Assembly (NCBI GenBank): GCA_018970085.1
Contig: JAGWXD010000005.1
Coordinates: 62,001 to 126,000 of the forward strand
Direction: 5' to 3'
Length of the DNA stretch: 64,000 bases
From: Cyanobacteria bacterium REEB459
GTDB taxonomy: Bacteria > Cyanobacteriota > Cyanobacteriia > Phormidesmidales > Phormidesmidaceae
A model generated the notes under the pieces. The model was not told the origin of the DNA. It saw only the letters and a program-made list of their open reading frames with translations, and made no database searches. Of the stretch, positions 54,004 through 57,764 are shown in pieces (the first letter of the stretch is position 1; each line of letters starts with the position of its first letter). A program made the position numbers and the translations under genes.

Positions 54004-54888
54004 GTGGTTGGCGCACGCAAGACCCGGGTTCAAAGAGCCTTGCACGATTCAGATAGAGCCCCCGCAGGTAGACCTCTGGCCTGGTTTGGTGTAAGTGGAG
54101 ATCGCCCCCTGGTGGCAATCGTGGGTTTTTCCCTAGTCATCTCTATGGCTGGTCTACAGCCTCTACAGGCGATTCCCCAGCCCGCCCCAGGGTTGGCGTT
54201 CCGGCCCGATTTAGAGTTAGGGGCTCCCCGCTATGGCGTGGGGTACCGGGCTGATAGGCTAGATCGCTGCCTCAGTCAGCTGACTCCTGATGCTTTAGAT
54301 CTAGATCCAGTCATCCTCAACCAGAGTCCGGTATTGCAGCGCTGGCTCCAGGCCATTCCTGATGTTGACGCAGAGATCACCCGGCAGCCAGCCTTTCGCC
54401 CCCGGGTAAGGGCGGCCTACACAGGCTTTCCCGCCCGGGGAGAAACGGGGGGCGTTGAGGTGGGGGTGGAAGATATTTTTTTGCTTCCAGGAACCGGCCT
54501 CACCCTCAGTAGCCATTACAGCACGAACAGTAACGGTCAACGTCAGTCCTATGGAGTTGAGGCCCGGTACTATCTATTACCCTTAGGTAACTACCTTAAC
54601 CTGGCTCCCACCCTGGGCTATCGAGACCTGGCCAACCCCGACTACCGTACCGGTGGAGTGGAGTTAGGACTGCGACTCATGCTAGTTACCTCTCGCGGCG
54701 GCGGGGCCGATCTAGCTTTGAGTCAACAATGGGTCTCGCTGGGCCAGCCGGGAGAAACTAGCATCACCGGCTTTAATCTGGGCTATGCAGTGAGTTCCCA
54801 ACTGCGCCTGGCAACGGATTTAGAGTTCCAAAGCTCTCCCCTTGGCTACGACAGCCGTTGGGGCCTGGGCCTGGAGTGGTTACTTTAG
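54004..54888 (+). CDS. beta-barrel-like outer membrane protein, unknown
   Basis: This protein has a hydrophobic stretch (LVAIVGFSLVISMAGL) and then A-I-P, so a signal peptide is likely. The rest alternates polar and hydrophobic residues with aromatic ends (VEARYYLLPLGNYLNLAPTLGYRDL, GLRLMLVTSRGGGADLALSQQW), typical of an outer-membrane beta-barrel. Function unknown. The GTG at 54004 gives 294 residues, but a later start near residue 30 is possible. It lies five bases after acsF and converges on the next gene with a four-base overlap. Confidence 0.6.
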   Translation: MVGARKTRVQRALHDSDRAPAGRPLAWFGVSGDRPLVAIVGFSLVISMAGLQPLQAIPQPAPGLAFRPDLELGAPRYGVGYRADRLDRCLSQLTPDALDLDPVILNQSPVLQRWLQAIPDVDAEITRQPAFRPRVRAAYTGFPARGETGGVEVGVEDIFLLPGTGLTLSSHYSTNSNGQRQSYGVEARYYLLPLGNYLNLAPTLGYRDLANPDYRTGGVELGLRLMLVTSRGGGADLALSQQWVSLGQPGETSITGFNLGYAVSSQLRLATDLEFQSSPLGYDSRWGLGLEWLL

Positions 54889-56318
54889 AATCGCAGGTTT
54901 AGATCGGCTGGCGATCGCGGCTGCAGCCTCTGGGGCAGGCTCGGATGTTGACTGTCCTGGGGGGGCACTGGGGGTAAACTGGGCGCAGCTGGGGTAGCCC
55001 TAGGCGGGATCGGCCCAGGGGGAGCCTGGCCAGAGGCCGGTTTGGTTCCTGCCTGGGGGGTTGGATCAAAGGTTTCTACGGTGAGAGCCCGAATTAAAGG
55101 GGGATTGAGCCCATCACTGACCCGTAGGGTCAGGGTGGTACTACTGGCGGGACCAAAGGGCACAGCCAGACTGCCCTGCATCGGCACGGTGCCCGGGGAG
55201 GGCAATAGTTCTACCCGGGTGGTGGCACCACCCTCCACTCGCCAACTCAGCCGGAAACCGGGCAGGCGTTGCCCCTGATCGACTGGCACCAGGTATTTGG
55301 GCTGGGCGGCGCGACCATTCACTGTAAAGGCGACAATTCGTACGGGCCGGGGTTTAATTTCAACTACGTCGCTGACTCGGGTTGATGGGGCGGTACTGGC
55401 TACCAGTTTGACGGGTACGGGAGTCAGCTCAAATTGATAACGACCGACTGCTGTCATGCCCGTCGGTACCCCCCGGCATACCAGGTCTGGGCGAATCTGA
55501 CAAAAGGCCTTGAGGGCATCAGGAATAACCAGTTGACCGGGTTGCTTGGCCTGGCGAAAACTGAATCGTCGTCCCCCCAGGGTCGGCCCTGCTGGTTGCC
55601 GCACCACCAGCAATAGATCCTGAAGGGACTCTGGTGAGCGAATTAGCCAGCTCAATTGCACCCCGGCTGGCCCTACCGGTGCAGCCTGGTTGGGGCCTGG
55701 GACTGTCGGGCCAGCTTCGGAGTAGATCACCTGCTGGGGGGCCAGCCCTAACACCAGGGGGGCTGGGGTGTCGACAATGGTGACCAGGCTACTGGTTTTC
55801 TGCTCAGGGGCCTGGCGGCCAGACCGGGATACTAGGGTCAATTCGAAGCGGTATTGCCCGGGCTGTCGCACGGCCGTTGGCACCTTTTGGCAGGTCAAGC
55901 GCTGGGGAGTTTGGCTACAGTAAGGCTGTAGGTCCAGGGGTAAGGTTCCCGATAGATCATAGTGTTTTGGGTCTCCCACCAAGCTGCCATCGGCCGCCAG
56001 GGTTTTTAAGGTCAACTCCCCAACCTGTCTAGGGTTGCTAATCTGCCAGTTGAGCAGGGGGCTGTTTTGGTCCTTCGCGCTATATTGACTGGCCACTGGA
56101 GATAGATCGAGTAAATAGGCAGGGGCTGGCTGGTGCCACAGGAACCAGCCAATTGGGGTTACAGCTGCTGCACCTAGAGCTACCAGAGCCAGTCGTCCGG
56201 GCCAGCGCGATCGCCAATTTAGGGCGGGCTTGAGTGAACCATTCTCCGGCGGTAGGGGTTGGCTAGCCGCTTCTGGGATGGCTGGGGTCGCCGGCTCATG
56301 AAAGTTTTCCACAGGCAC
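54885..56318 (-). CDS. membrane-anchored hypothetical protein with Ig-like repeats
   Basis: This 477-residue protein has a cytoplasmic start, one transmembrane helix (RLALVALGAAAVTPIGWFLW, about residues 42-61) and an extracytoplasmic part of three to four related beta-sandwich repeats (for example LLNWQISNPRQVGELTLKTL, LSWLIRSPESLQDLLLVVRQ, FRLSWRVEGGATTRVELLP), with a Pro-rich end. No catalytic motif is visible. The GTG at 56318 gives a weak start; GTG 56312 is an alternative. The first DnaA-like box (56305-56313) lies inside this N-terminal coding region. Confidence 0.6.
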   Translation of the reverse strand: MPVENFHEPATPAIPEAASQPLPPENGSLKPALNWRSRWPGRLALVALGAAAVTPIGWFLWHQPAPAYLLDLSPVASQYSAKDQNSPLLNWQISNPRQVGELTLKTLAADGSLVGDPKHYDLSGTLPLDLQPYCSQTPQRLTCQKVPTAVRQPGQYRFELTLVSRSGRQAPEQKTSSLVTIVDTPAPLVLGLAPQQVIYSEAGPTVPGPNQAAPVGPAGVQLSWLIRSPESLQDLLLVVRQPAGPTLGGRRFSFRQAKQPGQLVIPDALKAFCQIRPDLVCRGVPTGMTAVGRYQFELTPVPVKLVASTAPSTRVSDVVEIKPRPVRIVAFTVNGRAAQPKYLVPVDQGQRLPGFRLSWRVEGGATTRVELLPSPGTVPMQGSLAVPFGPASSTTLTLRVSDGLNPPLIRALTVETFDPTPQAGTKPASGQAPPGPIPPRATPAAPSLPPVPPQDSQHPSLPQRLQPRSPADLNLRF

Positions 56319-56444
56319 CAGAAAATCAATATTTTTTTACGATTCAAGAAAACCGTTTGTTTTCAAGGGACTCAAGCATCAATAGATACATTTTTACCAA
56401 GAGTTTCGGAGTTTTCCACAGGTTTTGCCCTGAGGTGTGGATAA
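56305..56444. other. cluster of DnaA-box sequences with AT-rich stretch
   Basis: TTTTCCACA occurs at 56305-56313 and 56412-56420 (both inside AGTTTTCCACAGG), and TGTGGATAA (reverse of TTATCCACA) is at 56436-56444. Between the first two lies an AT-rich part (56321-56372). TTTTCCACA is the box sequence reported for the Synechococcus elongatus oriC. It could be a replication origin, a DnaA titration site or a DnaA-regulated promoter. Confidence 0.55.
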
Positions 56445-56675
56445 CCAGAAACCGAGATCACCTGGACTTCTAAAGATAGCGCACAACGGCTCGCCAGGTG
56501 CGCTCTGGGTCAATCATTTTCTCCAGATTAATCAGTGCCAAGGGTAGGGTACTTTCAGAGAAATGGCTGAAAAAAGTCCCCCCCAGTCCCTTGATCACAG
56601 GCATCACCCTGGTCTTGAGGCATGCTGAAGCTAGCCGGGTAGGCAGATACCTGGTTCCCGACAGCAGTTTGAACT
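56319..56675. other. divergent region before the diguanylate cyclase
   Basis: A 357-base region holding two of the three DnaA-like boxes and AT-rich sequence but no credible gene; a plus-strand frame at 56498-56698 has no protein-like features. Confidence 0.5.
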
Positions 56676-57764
56676 ATGACCGACAATTGGCAACCTGACT
56701 TTCCTCCGTCAGGTAAATTTCAGTCCTTAGAGGACATTCGACGGCAGTGGCTGAAGATTTTATCAGGCATTTTTCTGGTGGCCCTGACCAGCCTATGGCT
56801 AGGGGAGTTGGTGATGGGCTGTCTCAGCCCCATGGACAAGCTTGCCTATCCAGCCTTGTTGTCCCTGACCAGCCTCTCGCTAATCCTGCTCCAACTCAAT
56901 CCCAGGGCCTATAAAATCGCTGTAATGGTCATAGTGGGAGTACTAACGGCCTATCAATTGATTTTTCTGCAGGCAATTATCTGGGGATACCTGCCCACTA
57001 CCAATGGCTATAAACTAGCTACCTTTGTGCAGTGGTTTCCCCTGATTTACCTGTTGACGTTTGTCTTCGTCAGAAGAAAATATGCCCTGGGGTTCTCCCT
57101 GTTTGTGTATGGATGGGTAGCCCTATCTGCCCTGGGCTGTGGCTGGTTGGCTCAGGTCTTGCCGGTCCAGAAGCAGGCCTTTCCTTATTTGCTGAATATG
57201 GTGATTGCCCATCCCATTTATATTTCTATCTTCACTGCGGTAGCCAGTTTACAAAAGTCTTTTTCCCAGTTTCAAACCGATGCCGATATCGATTATTTAA
57301 CTAATTTGTCGAATCGACGGGCCGCCAGTCGAGCCCTTGAACGGGCCCTCAGCAGTCATGCCCAGGCCTCCATCGGAGTGATGTTAATTGATATTGATCG
57401 CTTTAAAACTATTAACGACGCCTTTGGCCATGGTATCGGCGATCAGGTGCTGGTACAGGTGGGCAAGCTGTTTCAGCAGGGTTTGCGGAAGACAGATATT
57501 GCTTCTCGCTGGGGAGGGGAGGAGTTTTTAGTGGTACTGGTAACCACTACCGCCTCAGAACTCTATCAAACGGCAGAACGATTACGCCTGCGCTTAGAGG
57601 CTTACCCCCACCCGGCGGTAGGCCAGGTAACTGCCAGTTTTGGAGTGGCTATAGCCCGGCCCGGAGATCGCCTGGAAACCTTGCTAAGACGGGCAGATCA
57701 AGCTCTGTTTAAAGCTAAGCGGGCAGGTCGTAATCGAGTCGTTGTTGCCGATCCCATCGACTAG
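56676..57764 (+). CDS. membrane diguanylate cyclase
   Basis: This 362-residue protein has about five to six membrane helices (residues 28-200), a short linker, and a GGDEF domain. The catalytic motif is intact as GGEEF (280-284), and RKTD (271-274) is a product-inhibition I-site. It should make c-di-GMP from two GTP; the membrane part (unlike MASE1/7TMR domains I know) may sense a signal. There is no EAL domain. The stand-alone MshEN-like protein at 50.6 kb is a possible c-di-GMP reader. Confidence 0.9.
   Translation: MTDNWQPDFPPSGKFQSLEDIRRQWLKILSGIFLVALTSLWLGELVMGCLSPMDKLAYPALLSLTSLSLILLQLNPRAYKIAVMVIVGVLTAYQLIFLQAIIWGYLPTTNGYKLATFVQWFPLIYLLTFVFVRRKYALGFSLFVYGWVALSALGCGWLAQVLPVQKQAFPYLLNMVIAHPIYISIFTAVASLQKSFSQFQTDADIDYLTNLSNRRAASRALERALSSHAQASIGVMLIDIDRFKTINDAFGHGIGDQVLVQVGKLFQQGLRKTDIASRWGGEEFLVVLVTTTASELYQTAERLRLRLEAYPHPAVGQVTASFGVAIARPGDRLETLLRRADQALFKAKRAGRNRVVVADPID

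Follow-up and report, generated by a model that had tools for sequence, protein, structure and literature searches.

A compact cluster of DnaA boxes in a stretch of DNA that carries neither dnaA nor dnaN raises the question of what such a cluster is for. The window, which is the whole 64-kb stretch of DNA analysed, corresponds to C20:62001-126000 of a 3.24 Mb genome in 102 contigs (G000) and falls entirely within the higher-GC arm of contig C20. A first interpretation from the letters, here called the sequence-only reading, had proposed a possible origin or titration site and had suggested locating dnaN and counting the boxes genome-wide as checks. Its statement that the window holds no dnaA or dnaN is correct. 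The single DnaA gene is on C70, contains all three Pfam DnaA domains and scores above the NCBIfam DnaA cut-off. dnaN is found as a genus-type gene on C63 and as a foreign-type gene at C20:22-23 kb.

The cluster consists of three exact boxes in the order + + - within 140 bp, between two divergent genes in their intergenic/5' region. Boxes 1 and 2 are both TTTTCCACA, described as the cyanobacterial DnaA box in PMC4674748. They lie on the plus strand at 56305-56313 and 56412-56420, start 107 bp apart and are embedded in identical 13-mers, AGTTTTCCACAGG (56303-56315 and 56410-56422). Box 3, TTATCCACA, is on the minus strand at 56436-56444 and is inverted relative to box 2 across a 15-bp gap, giving spacings of 107 and 24 bp within the cluster. 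The two identical elements and the consensus box on the other strand are thus placed as the sequence-only reading had described them. These are the 3 TTWTCCACA sites of the 64-kb window, and no further site within one mismatch of TTTTCCACA occurs in 55800-57200. Allowing two mismatches in the 13-mer adds two matches in the window, a number near chance. The interval between boxes 1 and 2 (56314-56411), which had also been called AT-rich, is 65.3% AT, and only 0.33% of 98-bp windows are equally AT-rich; no two consecutive TA[CTA] occur in it. The intergenic region as a whole (56319-56675) is 53.5% AT. When a repeat element was sought, the 155-bp interval matched only itself among the own-genome loci searched and the relatives' loci compared.

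The gene to the left, on the minus strand at 54885-56318, encodes a 477-aa protein with genus orthologues that are 51-61% identical. The NCBIfam search of this protein returned no family, and its one Pfam match, DUF7311, was below the cut-off; a hydrophobic stretch read by eye suggests that it probably has a membrane anchor. The organism is likely Nodosilinea-like, which denotes a relationship and not a name, because the named relatives of this protein are a Leptolyngbyaceae MAG, Phormidium FACHB-1136, Nodosilinea P-1105, and another cyanobacterial MAG. The predicted GTG start of the gene is at 56318. Provided that this start is correct, box 1 overlaps codons 2-5 of the open reading frame, in agreement with the earlier claim that the first box lies in a coding start, and boxes 2 and 3 lie 102-126 bp upstream of it. 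The gene to the right, on the plus strand at 56676-57764, encodes a diguanylate cyclase (GGDEF) and is followed by infC, a neighbor that it also has in G024. Among the genomes searched, near full-length relatives of the GGDEF gene occur only in G024, G032, and G039. At E <= 1e-60, the gene is found in 3 of 63 family genomes, its own included, and in G039, which belongs to another family.

One explanation of the three boxes is coincidence, in which two intergenic boxes happen to stand near a third that is made by Val-Glu-Asn codons, and the group has no function. The sequence-only reading had held that three nine-base sites in 140 bases are unlikely by chance. Shuffles of the window contain a mean of 0.94 TTWTCCACA sites, and three or more, at whatever spacing, occur in 5 of 100 shuffles. 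The genome-wide count is 48, against 33 for a reversed-pattern control, with six of the 48 in a foreign stretch discussed below. When the 42 non-foreign sites were placed randomly, a triple spanning at most 131 bp arose in 5e-5 of 200,000 simulations, and no triple arose in 60 windows under a Markov model of the native arm. For these reasons, a chance origin of the cluster is unlikely, at about 5e-5 per genome, and the earlier claim is upheld. The 13-mer common to boxes 1 and 2 also speaks against coincidence. On the other side, the site count without this cluster and the foreign one is near background (39 against 33 in the control), the cluster is absent from every relative examined, and the residues encoded by box 1 align with the N-termini of the orthologues. 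Box 1, being within coding sequence, could be coincidental, which leaves two boxes. Taken as a whole, a functionless coincidence is unlikely.

The cluster could instead be a replication origin, main or additional, where DnaA bound to the three boxes would melt the AT-rich interval. The box clusters of cyanobacterial oriC in Synechococcus elongatus and Cyanothece 51142 have a counterpart here in the three exact boxes in 140 bp, and the Cyanothece 51142 origins are described in PMC4674748 as three boxes plus an AT-rich stretch. Several origins are reportedly used by some cyanobacteria (PMC7198777). Cyanobacterial oriC adjoins dnaN in most species, whereas the window cluster does not. Cyanobacterial oriC also has a box-spacer-trio run, and the arrangement of a box, a short spacer, and a DnaA-trio run is described as the basal unwinding system (PMC8287927); in contrast, 56001-56800 lacks any run of at least two TA[CTA]. 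The permissive published pattern (.A.){3,} is matched by GAAAATCAATAT, an (.A.)x4 that begins 7 nt after box 1, but the same pattern also matches 14% of random native positions. Local cumulative GC skew has a peak near 57 kb and not a dip. Skew is of limited use in this group, however: in G009 and G012 it has no clear single minimum across the 400 kb surrounding dnaN/priA, and it was set aside as an origin locator.

On the same contig, 95 kb to the left of the window cluster, six copies of TTTTCCACA at C20:23251-23808 lie beside a dnaN and are accompanied by a proper trio. If this were the oriC of the chromosome, the window cluster would be its distal regulator. The region C20:13726-29078 is, however, 97-98% identical to a contig of G053, which belongs to a different family; the comparison covers this stretch of the left arm. 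GC content along C20 steps from ~44% to ~55% near 40 kb, and the C20 dnaN shares 98% identity with that of G053 against 58-63% with those of the genus. Because of the GC step, the G053-like dnaN, and the identity to G053, the left arm of C20 is most likely a chimeric join or a contaminant, and the GC step and the identity to G053 speak strongly against the six-box cluster as a native oriC. A distal-regulator role for the window cluster is accordingly far-fetched. The listed contamination of the genome is 3.16%. The low-GC arm (C20:1-40000; L035-L036) also carries apparent groES and groEL genes, read by eye. The region serves as a warning that a six-box oriC of textbook form can stem from another organism through a chimeric join, even when it lies on the same contig.

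The dnaN on C63 shares 70-73% identity with its counterparts in genus members. Five one-mismatch boxes lie upstream of it, from -366 to -190 relative to its start, spaced relative to one another as in other genus members, and TACTAATAC, a trio-like run, follows the last of them after 14 nt. C63 escaped a strict scan, which asked for a run of three TA[CTA] with a box of at most two mismatches in the preceding 20 nt, so its array is degenerate. The imperfect boxes at the native dnaN and this unflagged scan are in favor of an origin in the window. A pattern for the layout of the basal unwinding system, with a box-like 8-mer, a short spacer, and two or more TA[CTA], by contrast, matches 18 of the 21 dnaN loci of the genus and 9 of 9 from other families, so that a related box-spacer-trio layout at dnaN argues against it. 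The genus loci missed by the pattern are those of G001, G018, and G000 itself, the last of which has the TACTAATAC variant 14 nt after a box. In the stretch examined, a TA[CTA] run of at least three is present at 12 of 21 genus and 8 of 9 other-family dnaN loci. Upstream of dnaN in G050 (L157), which is outside the pattern count, there is neither box nor trio, and G003 and G014 have no dnaN match.

The boxes upstream of dnaN differ between the genus and other families. In the 1.5 kb upstream of dnaN at 21 loci, TTTTCCCCA occurs 45 times, GTTTCCACA 23 times, and TTTTCCACA 16 times, a tally that includes chance matches outside the array. Many of the genus boxes (L125, L126-L145) are TTTTCCCCA or GTTTCCACA, and the trio-like run is usually kept. 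In the other families examined, the dnaN-upstream boxes are mostly TTTTCCACA.

The chromosomal origin thus appears to be elsewhere, beside dnaN on C63. Because of the dnaN-linked array with its trio-like run there and the lack of such a run here, the window cluster probably does not serve as the main oriC, and an origin of either kind at this position is very unlikely. The origin half of the first proposal is consequently unlikely. Its titration half stands as a fit to the sequence and to parallels elsewhere in the genus.

Those parallels are found upstream of priA and behind dnaN. Loci upstream of priA in genus relatives (L170-L188) have recurrent exact DnaA boxes. Among 15 relatives with upstream DNA, at least three exact boxes lie within 600 bp upstream of priA in 8, at least two in 10, and at least one in 13. 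The count leaves out G001, G005, and G014, which have no useful upstream DNA, and G017, which has no match, and it did not include G020, G021, or G022. No exact box is found upstream of priA in G002, G015, or G000. Where at least three boxes are present, the exact + + - order of the window cluster recurs in 5 of 8 (G013, G009, G010, G016, and G007), with boxes ~20 bp apart; G004 and G019 have extra boxes, and G012 has another order. In G006, the two priA-upstream boxes are 210 bp apart. As in the window cluster, a TA[CTA] run of three is missing upstream of priA, at 0 of 16 loci tested, the own locus included. The divergent neighbor of priA is rpoD at 7 loci checked by tblastn and, by family search, in G012. 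In the six genomes with priA boxes and with both genes on one contig (G012, G009, G004, G019, G018, and G013), priA and dnaN are roughly 20-40 kb apart. In other families, the 1.5 kb upstream of priA has an exact box in 0 of 5 (G042, G039, G035, G041, and G044).

Three of 21 genus members (G002, G015, and G021) have three exact boxes directly behind dnaN. In these loci (L132, L134, and L138), exact boxes and the near-matches CTGTTGAAAAC occupy ~150 bp. The three carriers form one clade in the DnaN tree with support of 0.98, so their clusters may reflect a single event. The two of them tested at priA, G002 and G015, have boxes behind dnaN and none upstream of priA. Conversely, among the 12 relatives that have both a priA box and a dnaN locus, none carries an exact box behind dnaN, and a whole-locus scan of G006 found none there; the G006 row (13 aa) and its position in the tree are void, and its upstream DNA is short. 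G000 has neither a priA nor a dnaN-rear cluster and has the 477-aa/GGDEF cluster instead. With three sequences from other families as the root of the DnaN tree, G000 falls outside the remaining genus members. An exact box pair 20 bp apart is also present in the native genome at G000:C23:151338-151366 (L116), where it is apparently intergenic.

We therefore favor, with moderate confidence and as the simplest account, a lineage-specific extra-oriC DnaA-binding cluster that would act in titration or in local transcription control, where extra-oriC means several consensus boxes off the dnaN-linked array, which is on another contig. The exact, non-random boxes, the one DnaA gene, the C63 array, and the genus clusters outside oriC are all consistent with this reading. 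The priA and dnaN-rear clusters resemble the window cluster in that exact TTTTCCACA copies are grouped outside the dnaN-upstream array. They differ in having other neighbors and in recurring in several species, whereas the window cluster is found in one genome. The spacings within the priA clusters, about 20 and 19 bp, are unlike the 107 and 24 bp seen here, which counts against the reading.

Conservation at the locus itself also counts against it. A nucleotide search with the cluster region among 57 genomes returned only its own genome. Upstream of the 477-aa gene orthologues, an exact box or a common genus variant is present in 0 of 20 genus members, with about 1.5 kb of upstream DNA for 18 and 282 and 143 bp for two. 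The GGDEF orthologues have an exact box nearby in 0 of 3, and the one in G039 is preceded by two one-mismatch sites at 0.55 and 1.1 kb. As judged by these searches, the cluster is specific to its own genome (G000) among the genomes examined.

The same missing boxes weaken the idea of a DnaA-responsive promoter, which is a variant of the extra-oriC reading and shares in its odds. DnaA on boxes 2 and 3 and on box 1 would cover the 477-aa start or loop over it, or would act on the GGDEF gene; expression would be coupled to replication, and titration would be a by-product. The position of boxes 2 and 3 upstream of the predicted start, and the overlap of box 1 with it, fit this idea, and in other bacteria, DnaA is described as regulating transcription at extra-oriC boxes (PMC7198777). 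A scan of the intergenic region 56319-56675, in contrast, gave a single weak promoter-like match (shuffle mean 0.7), and the same scan gave no terminator match. Such a promoter is possible, but we would not expect it.

Within the extra-oriC reading, DnaA would bind boxes 2 and 3 as an inverted pair, and box 1 would serve as a third anchor. Bound DnaA would also be in a position to modulate the 477-aa gene on the left, where box 1 overlaps the start region. Because the neighbors differ among lineages (rpoD/priA, the dnaN end, and 477-aa/GGDEF), control of one conserved gene is less likely to be the job of the cluster than holding DnaA, either by titration or by a change of its nucleotide state. 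A broader conjecture is that genus lineages keep a compact perfect-box cluster outside oriC at differing addresses (upstream of priA, behind dnaN, or in the 477-aa/GGDEF gap), while many of the dnaN-linked oriC boxes became the probably weaker variants TTTTCCCCA and GTTTCCACA. On this view, the cluster would be a DnaA sink that can be relocated and works independently of its neighbors. This conjecture is speculative, and we regard it as doubtful.

The role of DnaA in cyanobacteria that replicate without need of it is called unclear in PMC7198777. A literature search found no paper on such clusters in cyanobacteria, which is no proof of their absence. The accessible part of PMC4447404 does not mention priA, rpoD, or the word stem cyanobacteri, and that of PMC6478999 treats DnaA at oriC and lacks the terms datA and titration. 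Extra-oriC boxes that are nearer consensus than many oriC boxes offer concrete places to test roles in titration or transcription.

In other bacteria, DnaA-box clusters outside oriC are reported to act on initiation. Escherichia coli datA has five high-affinity extra-oriC DnaA boxes that are reported to restrain initiation (PMC5295017). datA is about 1 kb long and needs IHF, and its five boxes compare with the three within one mismatch in 55800-57200 of the window. In Bacillus subtilis, the DBCs are groups of DnaA boxes away from oriC, and removal of six of them is reported in the same source to cause early initiation. The window cluster differs from the DBCs in being one native triple, known from sequence alone, in a different phylum and beside different genes, but it is like them in its grouping of DnaA boxes at what appears to be a distance from oriC.
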